Positions 13,586 to 19,000 of a DNA stretch of 19,145 nucleotides are shown here, piece after piece. Both the position numbers and the translations under genes were made by a program. Positions within the stretch are counted from its first letter, which is position 1; every line of letters starts with the position of its first letter. Below the pieces are notes generated by a model that saw only the letters and a list, made by a program, of their open reading frames with translations, was not told the DNA's origin and searched no databases. This DNA comes from Caldisericota bacterium (GTDB taxonomy: Bacteria; Caldisericota; JANLFM01). The stretch spans positions 11,779-30,923 of the forward strand of contig JANLFM010000015.1 in assembly GCA_024655865.1 (NCBI GenBank), read 5' to 3'.

Positions 13586-13890
13586 ATTGAAAATTGGACG
13601 GAATAGGTACCGAGGTTAGAAAAGCAGAGACTGGCTTAAGCGGCTGAAGGGTTGGTGCCGCTACTTGTCTGGAATATTCCCAAAGGGCTGTCTCTCAAGC
13701 ATTTTGAAATGGTTCCAATAAAGTCCAACAGAGGGTGTAATTCCATAATTGTGATCCCGCATTTTCCCCTGAATGTTTCTGCCCTTTATTGACCAAAACC
13801 TATATAATTAAGATGGTTCCTTAGGGAGACTATTCATAAATGACCGATGGCTCTAAGGCGGGGCCGACACGGAAAATGGTCTCCAGTTAC
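13586..13890. other. Intergenic region upstream of the tRNA-Arg remnant
   Basis: 305 bp without a gene. AGCGGC (13639-13644) pairs with GCCGCT (13657-13662), but without a T-run. A perfect TATAAT at 13803-13808, with no good -35 at 17 bp, probably belongs to the tRNA promoter. Between it and the tRNA, positions 13825-13834 and 13875-13884 form a ten-pair stem (GGAGACTATT with AATGGTCTCC, one G-T pair) around a GC-rich 40-base interior. I cannot assign this fold to a known RNA family. Confidence 0.5.
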
Positions 13891-13950
13891 GCGCCCGTAG
13901 CTCAAGGGATAGAGCGACGGCCTCCGGAGCCGTAGGTTGCAGGTTCGAAG
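13891..13950 (+). pseudogene. tRNA-Arg(CCG), 3' end lost at the element junction
   Basis: The acceptor 5' strand GCGCCCG (13891-13897), D-arm GCTC/GAGC, anticodon arm ACGGC/GCCGT with loop CTCCGGA (anticodon CCG, arginine), variable loop AGGTT, T-stem GCAGG and T-loop TTCGAA are all as in a bacterial tRNA-Arg(CCG). After 13949 the expected CCTGC T-stem and CGGGCGC acceptor strand are absent. Instead comes GGAGGTCGGCTTTAA and the integrase start. The tRNA cannot fold, so it is broken by the insertion unless another copy exists. The missing 3' part should lie at the far end of the element, outside the window. Confidence 0.88.
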
Positions 13951-13964: not shown

Positions 13965-14861
13965 ATGCGATCTGCAGGCACAAAAAAGAAGGGTGTTTTT
14001 CAAACAGCCGCTGGTTCTTTAGTTTCTCTCTATTTAAAACAGTGTGACCTCAGAGGTCTATCCCCTCGCACTTTGGCAATGTACCAAGAGAAATTAGGAA
14101 GGTTCCTTCGCTTCCTAAAGGGAGAGAGCCTGGAGGAGGCGGACATTTTCGCCTTCGTTTCCTTCCTGAAGGAATCAGGAAACGGACCGGAGAGCATCAG
14201 CATCCACTTGCGAAGTCTGAAAACATTTTACCGCTGGGCCTACAATCAGGGGTTTATCAAATCCAATCCCCTCGATGGTTTCCCAGGGGTAAAAATCCCC
14301 AAAAAGCTCCTCCCCACCTTAACTCTCACGGCCCTACAGGAGCTTCTGGAAATCGCGAAGAAATTGAAGAGGAACTCCCGGAGGAATCAAGCTGTTTTGC
14401 TCTTAATGGTGGACTGCGCCCTGAGACCGGGCGAGCTCTTGAGCCTCACTTTAAGTGACTTCCAGGAAGACTATATCAGGGTGCGCGGCAAGACCGGGGA
14501 GAGGCTTCTTCCCATCTCTCAGGTTACCAAGAGGGCGATCCAGGCCTATTTAAGAAAGAGGAAGGCGCCTCCTTCGGAGGACGCGCTCCTCACCACTTCG
14601 GACGGAAGAGCTCTCACTTACTGCGCCCTGCGCTCCATTATGCGCCTCCTCAGAAAGAGAAGCCAGGTTAGCAGGCTTTATCCTTACCTTTTCCGCCACA
14701 CCTCCGCCACCTCTTACCTCCAGAACGGAGCAGATTTAGAGACCGTGAGACGACTTTTGGGTCATACTTCCTACGCTGTAACTCAGAGATACCTCAGCTT
14801 GACCCAGAATGACCTTGCCAGAGCACAGAGAAAAGCGAGCCCGGTGAACAGGCTGAAGTAG
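13965..14861 (+). CDS. Tyrosine recombinase / element integrase
   Basis: 298 residues, XerC/D-like size. An N-terminal SAM-like core-binding domain (about 15-105, GLSPRTLAMYQEKLGRFLRF) precedes the catalytic domain. Visible catalytic residues are R154 (CALRPGELLSL), K176 (RGKTGER), R244 (FRHTSATSYL), H267 (LLGHTSYA) and nucleophile Y276 (TQRYLSL). The first His of the usual HxxR box is Tyr (Y241, PYLFRH), a substitution known in part of the family. The ATG at 13965 has a strong SD, AAGGAGGT at 13948-13955, nine bases upstream, which overlaps the tRNA-Arg T-loop. Transcription therefore probably comes from the tRNA promoter in the integrated state. Position next to the broken tRNA makes it the element's integrase rather than a host Xer. 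Confidence 0.93.
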   Translation: MRSAGTKKKGVFQTAAGSLVSLYLKQCDLRGLSPRTLAMYQEKLGRFLRFLKGESLEEADIFAFVSFLKESGNGPESISIHLRSLKTFYRWAYNQGFIKSNPLDGFPGVKIPKKLLPTLTLTALQELLEIAKKLKRNSRRNQAVLLLMVDCALRPGELLSLTLSDFQEDYIRVRGKTGERLLPISQVTKRAIQAYLRKRKAPPSEDALLTTSDGRALTYCALRSIMRLLRKRSQVSRLYPYLFRHTSATSYLQNGADLETVRRLLGHTSYAVTQRYLSLTQNDLARAQRKASPVNRLK

Positions 14862-14939: not shown

Positions 14940-15560
14940 CTAAAGAGAGCGCTGGTGGAAATCAAAGTAGCCGTCTATAATGCCAATTTTAATAATCTTT
15001 GCCAATTCTAATACGTATTTAGCTACTTCTAGTATCCATTCAAAAAATATAAGCTCCCCTAATGCTTTCCTGCCCCTGAAATCCGCATAATCTTTAAAAA
15101 TACTTTCTATCTTCTCCTGTCTCTCAAAATCGCAGTGGAAATAAAATCCGAAAAGGTAATCGTCAAATACATTTTTTATAGAGTAGTACTCACCGTGAGG
15201 TAAGGATATTTTCTGCTCCAATTCTAATTTTAATTTCCTCCACTTGCCGCGTAACTTCTGAAGTTTTTGCTTGAATTTTACATTTCCACATGCATTTATG
15301 GCCTGATTAATAACTATTTCTATCATTAACGGACTATTATTATCGAAGTAAAAATGGCGCAACAGGATTAACAGGTAGCAGAGCTGCTCTTCATCGGGTT
15401 CATTGATGATAAAGCTGACCCCGTCTCCAAAACCTATTCCCGCATTGATCTTATATTCTTTTAACATTCTGCTTCTCTCCAACTTTTCAGCCCAATGCAG
15501 GAATTTCTCTATACGATCTGCTGGGTTTAGCTTAGAATGGCCACTCTTTTTCCGGTTCAT
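14940..15560 (-). CDS. Orphan AT-rich gene of unknown function
   Basis: 206 residues that I do not recognise. The DNA is clearly more AT-rich than its neighbours (the integrase and the ImmA gene), which suggests separate acquisition. The protein is mostly alpha-helical, with Lys/Glu-rich stretches (KFKQKLQKLRGKWRKLKLEL) and many aromatics (FGFYFHCDFERQ). A conserved-looking block reads DEEQLCYLLILLRHFYF. The C-terminal helices (FFEWILEVAKYVLELAKIIK) are amphipathic rather than clearly membrane-spanning. There is no signal peptide. It lies 66 bp downstream of the ImmA-HIRAN gene on the same strand, in the slot where temperate elements keep accessory genes. A defence or superinfection-exclusion role is possible but rests only on position. 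Confidence 0.75.
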   Translation of the reverse strand: MNRKKSGHSKLNPADRIEKFLHWAEKLERSRMLKEYKINAGIGFGDGVSFIINEPDEEQLCYLLILLRHFYFDNNSPLMIEIVINQAINACGNVKFKQKLQKLRGKWRKLKLELEQKISLPHGEYYSIKNVFDDYLFGFYFHCDFERQEKIESIFKDYADFRGRKALGELIFFEWILEVAKYVLELAKIIKIGIIDGYFDFHQRSL

Positions 15561-15626: not shown

Positions 15627-16598
15627 TTAAGTTGGCAATTGTATCCACACCGAGAAGCGAATGCCTGGAGACTTCCTCCTCCTGGGCAGGATCACGGTCT
15701 CCAGGGTGGCGAAGAGCTCTGCTGAGGAAGCCTCTTGGGCAATGCGAAGGGCCAGCTCTCGGGGGACGTAGCCCAAGAGCCCGGAGCATTCCTTTCCTTC
15801 TTTGTCCCTCCAGTGGCCGAGCACCTCCACAGCGTTCTGGTCGTAGGGATTCTGAGGATCGCGCCTCAATTCAAGGGAGCGCTCTTTTCCGTAGGCAAAG
15901 GAAAGGGCGTTTTCCTTGGTGCTCTCAAAGGAGATCCCGGCCACCTCCACTCCCTGGGCGAAAAGCTTGGCCCCTTCAGGGGCAGGTTGTCTTAAGCGAA
16001 TCCAGTGAGGGGGATCCCCGGGGTAGCGGAACTCCTGATTGTAGGGGAAAGCTTCCTCTGGGGAGATTACGGGGAGATTCTTTCCCGGGAGCCTGGGCAA
16101 GGAAGCAGTTTCCCCAGAGGTAATATTTGGGGTGGGCATATTAGCCTGCGGGGCACCGGAGAGGAGCCACTCGCCCAAGTCCTTTCTCAGGGCTTTGAGG
16201 TCCATCAAGCGCCTGACCATGGCCTCGAAGGAGACATCAAACTTTCGGGAGAGGTGCTCCACCTGAGAGGAGATCTGCTCAGGCTCATAGAGATCGGGAA
16301 GGCCGGAGAGGAGCTCCTCTTTGGGCATCAAAAGCTCGGCGGCATAGAGGTTGGCCTCGTGTTCCATCTGGGAATTTTCCCCGTAATCAGCAAAGAGGGT
16401 GGAGAGGTGGCGGTGGTGGTCAAAGTGGTAGAGCTCGTGGGCCAGGGTGAATTTCTGGTGGGTGCGGGACTTCCTGGAATTGATGATGCAGTACCAGGAA
16501 CCCTCCTGGTACTTGAGGATCCCCGAGACCTCCTCGCTCAGGGGATGGAAGATCACCTTGATCTTCCTCTTTTCGAACTCTTCAAGGAGCTTTTCCAA
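15627..16598 (-). CDS. ImmA/IrrE-type metallopeptidase fused to a HIRAN domain
   Basis: 323 residues. The N-terminal half is a DUF955/ImmA-IrrE zinc peptidase: HELYH (H54, E55, H58) in KFTLAHELYHFDHH, then the downstream EHEANLYAAELLMP (79-92) that supplies the third ligand. Such enzymes cut partner Xre repressors. A Pro-rich linker (about 141-205) leads to a C-terminal HIRAN domain at about 215-312, with VEVAGISFES, LELRRDPQNPYDQNAVEVLG and GLLGYVPRELALRIAQE as its typical blocks. HIRAN domains of HLTF/Rad5 bind 3' DNA ends at stalled forks. The start is TTG 16598, with SD AAAGGAG seven bases upstream and 12 bp after the Xre stop, so both are one operon. The fusion suggests that DNA damage triggers repressor cleavage; this is inference from the domains. 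Confidence 0.88.
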   Translation of the reverse strand: MEKLLEEFEKRKIKVIFHPLSEEVSGILKYQEGSWYCIINSRKSRTHQKFTLAHELYHFDHHRHLSTLFADYGENSQMEHEANLYAAELLMPKEELLSGLPDLYEPEQISSQVEHLSRKFDVSFEAMVRRLMDLKALRKDLGEWLLSGAPQANMPTPNITSGETASLPRLPGKNLPVISPEEAFPYNQEFRYPGDPPHWIRLRQPAPEGAKLFAQGVEVAGISFESTKENALSFAYGKERSLELRRDPQNPYDQNAVEVLGHWRDKEGKECSGLLGYVPRELALRIAQEASSAELFATLETVILPRRRKSPGIRFSVWIQLPT

Positions 16599-16610
16599 GA
16601 GGACTCTCCT

Positions 16611-16940
16611 TTACCTTCTTCTTTTCTTGGCGCTCTTTTTGGCCGGGGGAAACTTTTCCCGGATGATCCTCTCCGCTTCCTTCTCGATCATCTTGCGGAT
16701 GCTCTCATCAATGATACCCCGGGCGAACATCCTCTCCCTACCTACGAGCTCATCCAGGGAGATGTTGAAGAAATCGGCGATCTTTAAAGCGCTCTCGATG
16801 TCCGGGGAAATCCTGTTGTTCAGGATGTGGTAGATCGTGGACTGGGATTTTCCCAAATATTCCGCCAGCTCAATTACAGTTTTTCTCTGATTTTTGAGCA
16901 AGGCACGGATGCGGTCTCCAAGCTTCACAAAATCTTCCAT
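16611..16940 (-). CDS. Xre-family HTH repressor of the element
   Basis: 109 residues from ATG 16940, chosen because AGGAGG lies six bases upstream; an ATG 30 bases further upstream has no SD. An HTH_3/Xre domain spans about 5-65: LGDRIRALLKNQRKTVIELA, then EYLGKSQSTIYHILNNRISP and ALKIADFFNISLDELV. The C-terminal third is helical and charged (DESIRKMIEKEAERIIREKF) and ends in a very basic tail (KKSAKKRRR) that could add DNA contacts. There is no LexA/CI-type self-cleavage domain, so release of repression needs another factor, plausibly the ImmA-HIRAN protease encoded next. It diverges from the early genes, with two matching palindromes in the shared promoter region. Confidence 0.9.
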   Translation of the reverse strand: MEDFVKLGDRIRALLKNQRKTVIELAEYLGKSQSTIYHILNNRISPDIESALKIADFFNISLDELVGRERMFARGIIDESIRKMIEKEAERIIREKFPPAKKSAKKRRR

Positions 16941-16960
16941 TTCAGTCCTCCTTTGTATTG

Positions 16961-16989
16961 ATATTATCATAACATTGTTATTACATCAA
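16961..16989 (-). promoter_or_regulatory. Probable promoter of the xre/immA-HIRAN operon
   Basis: On the minus strand, TTGATG (16984-16989), 17 bp, then TAATAT (16961-16966). Transcription would begin near 16954, ahead of the SD and ATG 16940. The palindrome 16969-16981 lies between the two boxes, so a bound repressor would block this promoter. Confidence 0.5.
16969..16981. promoter_or_regulatory. Candidate repressor operator O1
   Basis: ATAACATTGTTAT is a perfect inverted repeat of five bases with a three-base centre. It shares the form ATAAY-N3-RTTAT with the palindrome at 17038-17050. It sits inside the xre promoter. Binding by the adjacent Xre protein is inferred from position and symmetry. 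Confidence 0.5.
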
Positions 16990-17017
16990 TAGTTTTAAAA
17001 AAATTTTTTTTCCATTC

Positions 17018-17047
17018 TTGACAACTTAATAGTCTCAATAATATGAT
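17018..17047 (+). promoter_or_regulatory. Early promoter of the element's plus-strand operon
   Basis: A perfect TTGACA (17018-17023), 18-bp spacer and TATGAT (17042-17047). The predicted start is near 17054, about 50 bases before the RHH gene. The leader can form a hairpin (TTCTTCA 17069-17075 with TGAAGAA 17084-17090). The -10 box lies within the palindrome at 17038-17050, which fits repression in the lysogen. Confidence 0.75.
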
Positions 17048-17050
17048 TAT
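17038..17050. promoter_or_regulatory. Candidate repressor operator O2 over the early -10
   Basis: ATAATATGATTAT is a perfect inverted repeat of five bases with a three-base centre. It has the same half-site form as 16969-16981 and covers the early promoter's -10 box. Its AT-richness makes a chance palindrome possible. Confidence 0.45.
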
Positions 17051-17103
17051 ATGCGTGAATACTATCACTTCTTCATCAAATTGTGAAGAAAGAAGGGATC
17101 GAA

Positions 17104-17280
17104 ATGAGAAAGAAACCCCGGGGAAGGCCGCTCAAGAGGACTACCTATGTGATGGTGCGCCTCTCCCCCAAGGAGAAGAGGATCTGGAAGGAGTTAGCCT
17201 TGATGGAGAGGATGAGCCTCTCGGAGTTCCTGCGCCAGCTCATCACGGAAAGGGCCAAAGCCCAGGAAATATGGAAGTAG
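17104..17280 (+). CDS. Small ribbon-helix-helix (CopG/Arc-type) DNA-binding protein
   Basis: 58 residues from ATG 17104, preferred over the in-frame ATG at 17083 because AAGGGA lies at 17093-17098. A basic N-terminus (MRKKPRGRPLKRTT) leads into the strand VMVRLSPKEKR and two helices (IWKELALMERM, SLSEFLRQLITERA), the standard RHH/CopG layout. It is the first gene of the plus-strand early operon, facing the Xre repressor, where phages place a Cro-like or secondary regulator. The product is likely a dimeric regulator that may bind the same intergenic DNA. Its stop codon overlaps the HNH start by ten bases in another frame. Confidence 0.85.
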   Translation: MRKKPRGRPLKRTTYVMVRLSPKEKRIWKELALMERMSLSEFLRQLITERAKAQEIWK

Positions 17281-18086
17281 AGGAGCGCTTCTGGTCCATG
17301 GTGAAGAGGGACAATCCTTATTCCTGCTGGGAGTGGCAGGGATACACCTTAAGGGATGGATACGGGGCCTTCCACTTTCAGGGAAAGAGGATCATTGCCT
17401 CGCGCTTTGCCTGGATTTTAACCTATGGGGAGATCCCTCCTGGGATGTGCGTCCTCCACAAGTGCGACAACCCCTCCTGCGTCAACCCCAGGCACCTCTT
17501 TTTAGGGACACAGAAGGACAACATGCATGACGCCGTCTTGAAGGGCATGAAGAGTGGGCCGCACAACGGGCGCACCAGGCTCACCTGGCCCCAGGTGGAC
17601 GCCATCCGCCTGCTGCTCCAGAACGGCTGGAGCGCCTACCGATTGGCCAGGTTCTTCGGCGTGAACTACAAGACTGTCTGGCAGATCCTCAGGGGGAAGA
17701 CCTGGAGGGAGCCGGCGGAGGTCATGGATGTGGAGGCATTCAAAGGAAAATCGGAAAAGGCTGGGGAGGTGATGGGCAAAGGAGCATTCAAAGAGGAACC
17801 GGGAGAGGCCGCAGAGAGCTTCCAAAAGGAGGAATTCGAGATGAAAAGGAAGGGCATGTGGCTTGTGACGGAGCGCGTGGAGACTCCGGCTTTGACTCTG
17901 GAGTTCCCGGTGGGCATGTTCTGCTCCCGGGAGGCCGCACTGGCCTTCGTCCGGGGGAAGGAGAAGGCCTACCGCCTGCGGTGGATTTCGAGCGATATCG
18001 GAGAGGCCAATTACTGTGAGGTAGCTGAGGTGAGTTCAGACGGTGCGGGAGAGGCCGAAGAGAACTTCAAGAAGGAGGAATTCTGA
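17271..18086 (+). CDS. HNH endonuclease with HTH domain, apparently fused to a small downstream protein
   Basis: 271 residues from ATG 17271 (AGGA just upstream). Residues about 5-85 form an HNH_3-type nuclease: NPYSCWEWQG, DGYGAFHFQGK, then VLHKCDNPSCVNPRHLFLGT with catalytic H63 and the Cys/His zinc set. An HTH of the kind found in homing endonucleases follows (LTWPQVDAIRLLL...LARFFGVNYKTVWQILRGKTW, about 104-145). Two 16-residue repeats (149-164 and 165-180) lead to M191. There a new domain begins (MKRKGMWLVTERVETPALTL...EAALAFVRGKEKAY), preceded by a strong SD, so it may also be made separately. The stop TGA shares one base with the next ATG. Upstream codons in this frame (17043-17270) only shadow the RHH gene. 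Likely a free-standing phage HNH nuclease, possibly mobile itself. Confidence 0.85.
   Translation: MEVEERFWSMVKRDNPYSCWEWQGYTLRDGYGAFHFQGKRIIASRFAWILTYGEIPPGMCVLHKCDNPSCVNPRHLFLGTQKDNMHDAVLKGMKSGPHNGRTRLTWPQVDAIRLLLQNGWSAYRLARFFGVNYKTVWQILRGKTWREPAEVMDVEAFKGKSEKAGEVMGKGAFKEEPGEAAESFQKEEFEMKRKGMWLVTERVETPALTLEFPVGMFCSREAALAFVRGKEKAYRLRWISSDIGEANYCEVAEVSSDGAGEAEENFKKEEF
17715..17810 (+). repeat. Two tandem 48-bp coding repeats in the HNH gene
   Basis: They encode AEVMDVEAFKGKSEKA (17715-17762) and GEVMGKGAFKEEPGEA (17763-17810), sharing the xEVMxxxAFKxxxxxA pattern. At DNA level both contain GGAGGT directly followed by an ATG, so they resemble degraded gene starts. Confidence 0.7.
17801..17837 (+). 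repeat. Direct repeat copy 1 carrying a Shine-Dalgarno (partner at 18047-18083)
   Basis: The 37 bp here match 18047-18083 with four mismatches. Both run from GGGAGAGGCC to AAGGAGGAATTC. Copy 1 is read through (…EEFEM191), whereas copy 2 ends in the stop TGA overlapping the next ATG. Confidence 0.85.
17841..18086 (+). CDS. Possible independently translated small protein (internal start of the HNH gene)
   Basis: The ATG at 17841 is in frame within the HNH gene and would give 81 residues beginning MKRKGMWLVTERVETPALTL. An AAAAGGAGG at 17824-17832, eight bases upstream, is as strong as the SDs of the neighbouring genes. The sequence (GMFCSREAALAFVRGKEKAY, then RLRWISSDIGEANYCEVAEV) looks like a small self-contained alpha/beta domain and has nothing typical of HNH enzymes. 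I do not recognise the family. It probably represents a formerly separate gene whose upstream stop was lost, with both fused and separate products possible. Confidence 0.55.
   Translation: MKRKGMWLVTERVETPALTLEFPVGMFCSREAALAFVRGKEKAYRLRWISSDIGEANYCEVAEVSSDGAGEAEENFKKEEF
18047..18083 (+). repeat. Direct repeat copy 2 carrying the Shine-Dalgarno of the next gene
   Basis: It matches 17801-17837 with four mismatches over 37 bp. Its AAGGAGG (18072-18078) is the ribosome binding site, seven bases before ATG 18086. Confidence 0.85.
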
Positions 18087-19000
18087 TGGAGGAGAAAGGC
18101 ATTTATCCCGTGGAGGTGAAAGAGGGGGAGAGCTCTCTTCGACCCCTCGTCCAGGCGCCGGAGGTAGTTCTCCAAGAAGCGCAGAGGGCAGCACAGGCTC
18201 TTCAGAGAGTTGTGGCGGGAAAGAAGAAGCCCGTGATCTTCAAAGGGGAGCAGTATTTAGAGTTTGAGGACTGGCAGACCGTGGGCAAGTTCTACGGATT
18301 GTGTGCCCGCACCTTTGAAGCTACCCCTGTGGAGATTTTCGGGGTGAAGGGAGCGAAGGCCAGGGCCGAGGTGGTGGATCTGAGAACTGGACAGGTGGTG
18401 GGAGGGGCGGAAGCCTACTGCATGAGGGATGAGGAAAAGGAAAACTGGGCGGTGAAGCCCTGGTTTCAGCTGGCAAGTATGGCCCAGACCAGGGCCGGAG
18501 CAAAGGCGCTTCGGAACGTCCTGGCCTGGGTGGTGGTGCTCGCCGGCTACAGGCCCACTCCGGCGGAGGAGCTTCCGCCGTCCCCCGCTCAGGGGGTGAA
18601 GGCGAAGGTTATCGCGCCTCAGGGGAGCTCGGGAGGGAGCGCAGGATTATCCGGGCAGGGAGCTCAGGGATTCTCTCCTTCTGGACAGAGTGCTCCGGGA
18701 TCCTCTTCCGTGCAGGGAGCTCTAGCAGAAAAGAGCGCCTCCCCTACTCCCTCCACGGAGCGCCCCACCAGGGAGGAGATCCAGAACCTGCTCCGCCTGG
18801 CGTATAAGAACGGCTTCCAGACCGTAAACGCTGAGGGTAAGAAGTGCGTGGACTACCACCACCTGGGAGCGTTTCTGAAGGGAAACGGTCCCCCCATGAT
18901 CCGGGACTTAACCAGGGAGGAGTGCCGCATCGCCTCCCTTTCCTTAGAGGCCAGAGCGAAAACCCTCTTTCCCCAGGGGGAAAAGGAGATCCCGCTGTGA
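18086..19000 (+). CDS. Conserved phage protein, possible recombination/annealing-module member
   Basis: 304 residues. The N-terminal domain (about 1-165) contains KPVIFKGEQYLEFEDWQTVG, KFYGLCARTFEATPVEIFGV, VVGGAEAYCMRDEE and LASMAQTRAGAKALRNVLAW. The QTRA-x-x-KALR stretch recalls the helix of ERF/Sak-type single-strand annealing proteins, but I cannot assign a family. A Ser/Gly/Gln/Pro-rich disordered linker (about 166-225) joins a C-terminal helical domain (TREEIQNLLRLAYKNGFQTV...KTLFPQGEKE). The start ATG shares one base with the HNH stop and has a strong SD. It overlaps the following gene by four bases. Placement before a replication-type gene supports a DNA metabolism role. Confidence 0.75.
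   Translation: MEEKGIYPVEVKEGESSLRPLVQAPEVVLQEAQRAAQALQRVVAGKKKPVIFKGEQYLEFEDWQTVGKFYGLCARTFEATPVEIFGVKGAKARAEVVDLRTGQVVGGAEAYCMRDEEKENWAVKPWFQLASMAQTRAGAKALRNVLAWVVVLAGYRPTPAEELPPSPAQGVKAKVIAPQGSSGGSAGLSGQGAQGFSPSGQSAPGSSSVQGALAEKSASPTPSTERPTREEIQNLLRLAYKNGFQTVNAEGKKCVDYHHLGAFLKGNGPPMIRDLTREECRIASLSLEARAKTLFPQGEKEIPL

Follow-up and report, generated by a model that had tools for sequence, protein, structure and literature searches.

The closest described relatives of the locus analyzed here are pairs of an Xre-type repressor and an M78 (ImmA/IrrE) zinc peptidase: CapP-CapH, associated with CBASS in Thauera sp. K11; PprI/IrrE-DdrO of Deinococcus; and ImmA-ImmR of ICEBs1 and the pneumococcal ImmAR prophages. 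The signal that activates ImmA-type proteases is a long-standing question, and the response of PprI and CapP to single-stranded DNA (ssDNA) was found only recently. Binding of ssDNA causes both enzymes to cut their Xre-type partners (PMC10904395; PMC13373217), and in PprI the C-terminal GAF-like domain mediates this activation (PMC10904395). Pneumococcal ImmAR prophages lyse cells independently of RecA, and ssDNA sensing has been suggested for them (PMC12637031). A second domain relevant to this locus, HIRAN, binds DNA ends in human repair proteins. In the translocase HLTF, its DNA cavity has Y72 and Y93 at the edge (PMC4666394). In bacterial HipL kinases and HipN antitoxins, HIRAN has been proposed to sense DNA ends, in a role similar to the recognition of foreign or replicating DNA (PMC8262856). 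One prophage paper also notes a lysogeny module that includes a membrane HIRAN protein, thaL.

The analyzed stretch of 19,145 nucleotides (the window) belongs to a metagenome-assembled genome (MAG) of a Caldisericota bacterium (GCA_024655865.1). Its left two thirds are chromosomal, with serS, cysS, and genes for SLH proteins and a P-type ATPase, while a mobile element starts at about 13.9 kb and reaches the contig end at 19145 (Table 1). The probable junction is marked by a truncated tRNA-Arg gene, 95%–97% identical to intact tRNA-Arg(CCG) genes of relatives and of the same assembly, in which the match stops at the T-loop; no tRNA was called at this position. About 300 bp comprising the truncated gene and its upstream region (13657–13949) share 84% identity with an intact counterpart on another contig of the assembly (C62, locus L065). 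Neither attR nor a second T-loop core was found within the window, where the contig ends. The integrase, the repressor operon, the divergent early genes, joined by replication genes in a second element described below, and the tRNA site together match a temperate-phage lysogeny module. No virion structural genes were seen in the sequenced parts of the two elements, both of which run off contig ends and are thus called only phage-like. The 206-aa ORF downstream of the immA-HIRAN gene, on the same strand, is AT-richer than its neighbors.

Table 1. Coordinates of the mobile element features in the window
Feature	Position	Strand	Details
tRNA-Arg(CCG), 5' part, cut within T-loop	13891..13949	(+)	Probable attachment junction
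Tyrosine recombinase (integrase)	13965..14861	(+)	Phage_integrase E 3e-26 (Pfam); PHROG 1 E 4e-47
206-aa ORF	14940..15560	(-)	No family match; element membership uncertain
ImmA-HIRAN gene	15627..16598	(-)	323 aa; TTG start; good AAGGAG site upstream
HIRAN domain	15636..15956	(-)	Residues 215-321; Pfam, Foldseek, VIA-align
Helical region, disordered linker (residues 158-178) and NQEFRYPGDPPHWIRLRQPAPEG stretch	15957..16202	(-)	AlphaFold model; conserved in G001, G430
M78/ImmA-IrrE peptidase domain	16203..16574	(-)	Residues 9-132; zinc ligands H54, H58, E79
Exchanged cassette	16368..17279	.	Peptidase residues 1-77, whole Xre gene, control region, RHH gene
Xre (cI/HTH_3) repressor	16611..16940	(-)	109 aa from ATG at 16940; 119 aa from earlier ATG
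Divergent control region	16941..17082	.	Consensus matches only
Ribbon-helix-helix (RHH) gene	17083..17280	(+)	Pfam NikA-like E 8e-7, RHH_1; ATG at 17107 is the probable start
HNH endonuclease, phage type	17271..18086	(+)	HNH_3 E 4.5e-12; PHROG 1872 E 1e-30, PHROG 59 E 6e-29
Phage early protein, no assigned function	18086..19000	(+)	PHROG 19042 E 2e-12

The central gene of the element encodes an M78 peptidase fused to a HIRAN domain. Both domains scored above their Pfam cut-offs: Peptidase_M78 matched residues 9–132 with E 6.4e-21 and 74.9 bits (cut-off 22 bits), and HIRAN (PF08797) matched residues 215–321 with E 3.8e-10 and 39.9 bits (cut-off 24.7 bits). The peptidase half contains the zinc motif H54-E-x-x-H58 (HELYH) and E79 within the EHEANLYAAELLMP helix, and was matched by the capP model of PADLOC (E 5e-25). 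The best PDB matches by sequence only were HLTF and IrrE, both weak (E 0.013–0.018). The AlphaFold model had an overall pLDDT of 84 with both domains confident, a pTM of 0.59, and a disordered linker at residues 158–178. In Foldseek searches with this model, HLTF HIRAN-DNA complexes (6kcs, 4s0n, 4xzf; E 6e-5 to 8e-5) and a PprI-ssDNA complex ranked first. VIA-align placed residues 1–168 closest to CapP (7t5t, Z 13.0), followed by the IrrE/PprI structures at Z 10–11 (IrrE 3dte, Z 10.9), and residues 208–323 closest to the HIRAN protein lp_0118 (3k2y, Z 9.9) and HLTF (4xzf, Z 7.4). A GAF-like C-terminal domain of the PprI type is absent, its place being taken by the half that matches HIRAN structures. 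The fusion is more than a chance arrangement because a second Xre plus M78-HIRAN pair occurs in the assembly, the HIRAN domain has a dN/dS of about 0.11–0.14, indicative of purifying selection, and the model is confident. Together with the Pfam cut-offs, these results ruled out a chance ORF or a misread domain.

The protease gene is second in its operon, and the Xre gene ends 12 bp before it (gap 16599–16610). The Xre protein matched HTH_3 (E 2.8e-14), the PHROG 8 transcriptional regulators (E 6e-22), and, in PADLOC, capH (E 1e-6), while no S24 self-cleavage domain was detected by Pfam. By analogy with the described pairs, this protein is the probable substrate of the fused protease. The intergenic region on its other side carries a promoter-like TTGACA-18-TATGAT at 17018–17047, a consensus match only, and imperfect inverted repeats, for example, 16956–16972/16975–16991. 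The divergent RHH gene occupies a place like that of Cro or an antirepressor. Thus, a sequence-only reading of this DNA, which had proposed an ImmA/IrrE-HIRAN protein of 323 residues behind an Xre repressor without a self-cleaving domain, all on a mobile element, was borne out on each of these points by the Pfam and structural matches and by the integrase, truncated tRNA-Arg, and phage early genes.

Given the ssDNA-activated cleavage by CapP and PprI and the behavior of the pneumococcal ImmAR prophages, the economical reading is that of a prophage-like anti-repressor in which HIRAN stands in the position of the GAF-like domain of PprI. The Xre protein would repress the divergent early genes, and the zinc peptidase half would cut this repressor. 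HIRAN, carried on a flexible linker, would bind to DNA ends or to single-stranded 3' tails, thereby raising or localizing the peptidase activity, so that host DNA damage or fork collapse would induce the element and switch on the early operon. We give an even chance to this reading, in which an integrated phage-like element uses the locus as its lysogeny (immunity) switch, with the fused protein acting as an anti-repressor that cuts Xre and HIRAN responding to DNA ends.

Each of the known systems shares part of this design. CapP-CapH, the best structural and PADLOC match, has the same two-gene composition but controls immune operons, and no HIRAN has been described for CapP. PprI likewise combines an M78 peptidase with a C-terminal nucleic-acid sensor that activates repressor cleavage on ssDNA; however, this sensor is GAF-like rather than HIRAN, and DdrO represses a host regulon, whereas the Xre protein here is of phage type. 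ImmA-ImmR is a repressor-protease pair inside an integrative element, as here, but no HIRAN domain has been described for ImmA. HLTF and Rad5 HIRAN domains share the fold (Foldseek E 6e-5; VIA-align Z 7.4) and the RDPxNPYDxNA motif, although HLTF is a translocase fusion and the present protein a protease fusion. HipL and HipN likewise couple HIRAN, proposed to detect DNA ends, to a bacterial effector or regulator (PMC8262856), but the effector is a Ser/Thr kinase instead of a repressor-cutting protease. The domain assignment first proposed from the sequence is supported, but direct DNA sensing was already established for this protease class through PprI-DdrO and CapP-CapH, which makes the mechanism here a variant. 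HIRAN may thus modify or take the place of a sensing mode that the class already had, instead of introducing it. The ligand known from human HLTF nevertheless provides a concrete and testable guess for the signal, namely 3' DNA ends. If correct, it suggests a way for a mobile element to detect damage independently of RecA and LexA. The host also encodes a LexA-like S24 protein, so the switch would add to the SOS response and not substitute for it.

The best-surviving alternative is that ssDNA is sensed by the peptidase half itself, in the manner of CapP, while HIRAN is not the switch and serves only as a tether to DNA ends or forks or as a source of added affinity. Residues 1–168 resemble CapP most closely, and CapP is activated by ssDNA with no HIRAN described; HIRAN-free Xre-M78 pairs occur in the same family of genomes, and the linker between the two domains is predicted to be flexible. 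Against this, purifying selection on HIRAN and its N-terminal extension in both copies would be unexpected if they were dispensable, and we consider this division of labor unlikely, though a serious contender.

A second alternative retains the DNA-sensing role of HIRAN but tunes it to foreign or replicating DNA, such as the ends or tails of superinfecting phages, so that the locus would serve phage-phage conflict or defense instead of responding to host damage. Such a role has been proposed for HipL/HipN HIRAN (PMC8262856), CapP-CapH pairs control defense operons, and the second element shares its contig with type I restriction genes. However, the repressor faces phage early and replication genes instead of a defense operon: up to the contig end at 19145, only the RHH, HNH, and phage early genes were found, with no immune operon of the types controlled by CapP-CapH pairs (CBASS, Bub, etc.). 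This interpretation therefore appears improbable.

Comparison with the second fused copy (L058:10532–11542, contig C13 of the same assembly) separated the exchangeable parts of the proposed lysogeny switch from the constant ones. This copy has the same gene order and an adjacent Xre gene, its HIRAN domain scored 35.8 bits (cut-off 24.7), and its element continues with phage replication-initiation and helicase-loader genes. Genes for type I restriction (hsdR, hsdM, and hsdS-like) and for a DUF262-like protein lie near it on C13 (L057/L058). The DNA of the two loci is 83% identical at 15645–16367 and 82% from 17280 onward, while no BLAST-detectable similarity was found across 16368–17279. In a global alignment, identity fell at the cassette borders from about 0.85–0.91 to 0.2–0.5 and then returned; both borders are sharp, one inside the peptidase gene and the other after the RHH gene. 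At the protein level, peptidase residues 1–77 are 41% identical between the copies and the remainder about 85%, whereas the Xre proteins share 32%. The zinc-ligand half, the linker, and HIRAN are common to both. Since the host genome is a MAG with an estimated contamination of 2.85%, the C13 copy could stem from another strain, which leaves the comparison unchanged.

As judged from these alignments, the pattern resembles that of heteroimmune phages. The exchange points to the repressor and the peptidase N-terminus as a specificity unit: they look like a matched pair, with HIRAN as a constant module. It thus offers natural evidence for the part of the protease that recognizes the repressor (residues 1–77), and the two copies supply ready-made cognate and non-cognate protease-repressor pairs. 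A lysogeny module with exchange of immunity cassettes also argues against a toxin-antitoxin pair, in which the fused protein would be a toxin cutting other proteins and Xre its antitoxin. Genome surveys and work on Brucella list Xre/COG2856 pairs among candidate type II toxin-antitoxin systems, but the Xre-M78 pairs studied biochemically (PprI-DdrO and CapP-CapH) cut the repressor, and the toxin-antitoxin interpretation is very unlikely. A more specific form of the lysogeny switch would have HIRAN recognize 3' DNA ends and allosterically trigger repressor proteolysis. The repressor would be swapped together with the substrate-recognizing half of the protease as an immunity cassette while the sensor remains constant, which would be a modular design not described before. 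This form is tentative, with the balance tilted slightly against it: the disordered linker and the pTM of 0.59 mean that no interdomain contact is predicted, which leaves allosteric coupling unsupported.

The DNA-end reading depends on the HIRAN pocket. In the motif alignment, HLTF Y72, N91, Y93, D94, and K113, all at the HLTF pocket, correspond to F224, N250, Y252, D253, and R280 of the fused protein. HLTF R71, Y72, and H110 are replaced by S223, F224, and Y277, and a helix (residues 225–236) is inserted. The NPYD..NA motif together with F224, N250-P-Y252-D253, Y277, and R280 was kept in all three Caldisericota copies, namely the two fused ones and a peptidase-less copy in the MAG A05DMB09 (G001) of the same genus. 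Conservation of the pocket, expected from the sequence-only reading, thus holds for the NPYD..NA motif, Y252, D253, and F224 within Caldisericota but not for the R71 and H110 positions, nor for a homologue in the unrelated genome G430, where NPYD is lost. The same loss and the replacement of R71 could suggest that HIRAN does not bind DNA ends here and is either a relic or an OB-like fold for protein binding, but the pocket tyrosine, aspartate, and asparagines kept in every Caldisericota copy and the low dN/dS make this extremely unlikely.

The HIRAN module, including the NQEFRYPGDPPHWIRLRQPAPEG stretch, exists without the peptidase in both A05DMB09 and G430 and, therefore, was not made solely for a repressor switch. 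In A05DMB09, it is an open frame under purifying selection, without peptidase or Xre (L056:7833–8459), located 230 bp upstream of tRNA-Arg(TCG), with a truncated SLH domain on the opposite strand upstream. The G430 homologue (L111:6240–6752) has 170 aa, is 37% identical, and falls below Pfam detection. It is encoded directly behind a calcineurin-like phosphoesterase gene and the gene of a long AAA/SMC-type ATPase, whose products look like DNA-end repair proteins of the YhaO/YhaN-SbcCD type; the Yha naming is our own reading.

Both fused copies belong to one MAG, and each stands beside an Xre gene, a linkage that the sequence-only reading had proposed to examine across genomes. In three overlapping samples of 386–389 genomes each, about 8%–12% had HIRAN, yet at none of the 46 HIRAN loci outside Caldisericota did the ORF itself or its surroundings of about 1.5 kb contain an M78 domain. 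On these sampled genomes, a widespread fusion was rejected. When 84,980 species genomes, possibly excluding the window's own, were scanned for the module, one locus was returned, the A05DMB09 copy. Neither the fusion nor the HIRAN module with its extension was matched in viral contigs. Twelve viral HIRAN loci with the NPYD pattern had HIRAN ORFs of 110–347 aa, all without M78, and phage and plasmid collections yielded M78-only or HIRAN-only matches. Relatives of the 18086–19000 protein were present in 38 IMG/VR viral contigs, and neither M78 nor HIRAN was found in the sequence examined there. No paper combining HIRAN with ImmA/IrrE was found in the searchable literature, in agreement with the initial impression of novelty, although an unremarked domain-database entry (e.g., in InterPro) may exist. 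The M78-HIRAN fusion thus appears to be undescribed and rare.

Several other arrangements were recorded. Plasmids of Rhizobium and Methylocystis (L007, L008) carry Xre-ImmA operons with an ExoI-like exonuclease, divergent from multi-ubiquitin/ThiF operons. They were ruled out as a split version of the fusion since the exonuclease lacks HIRAN, and probably represent Bub-type immune operons controlled by a regulator resembling CapH-CapP. The HIRAN-free Xre-M78 pairs in the same family of genomes (L012, L026, L028, and L029), several of them beside genes for cytosine-permease-like transporters, are probably host metabolic regulators. In another phage lysogeny region, that of Terrisporobacter phage TPELB_ph1 (L113:4191–5690), a 499-aa protein with HIRAN and TPR is encoded between the repressor gene and the integrase. 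The viral structure entry A0A8S5V4G8 (309 aa), a HIRAN domain protein by name, aligns across 230 columns and could be another fusion.
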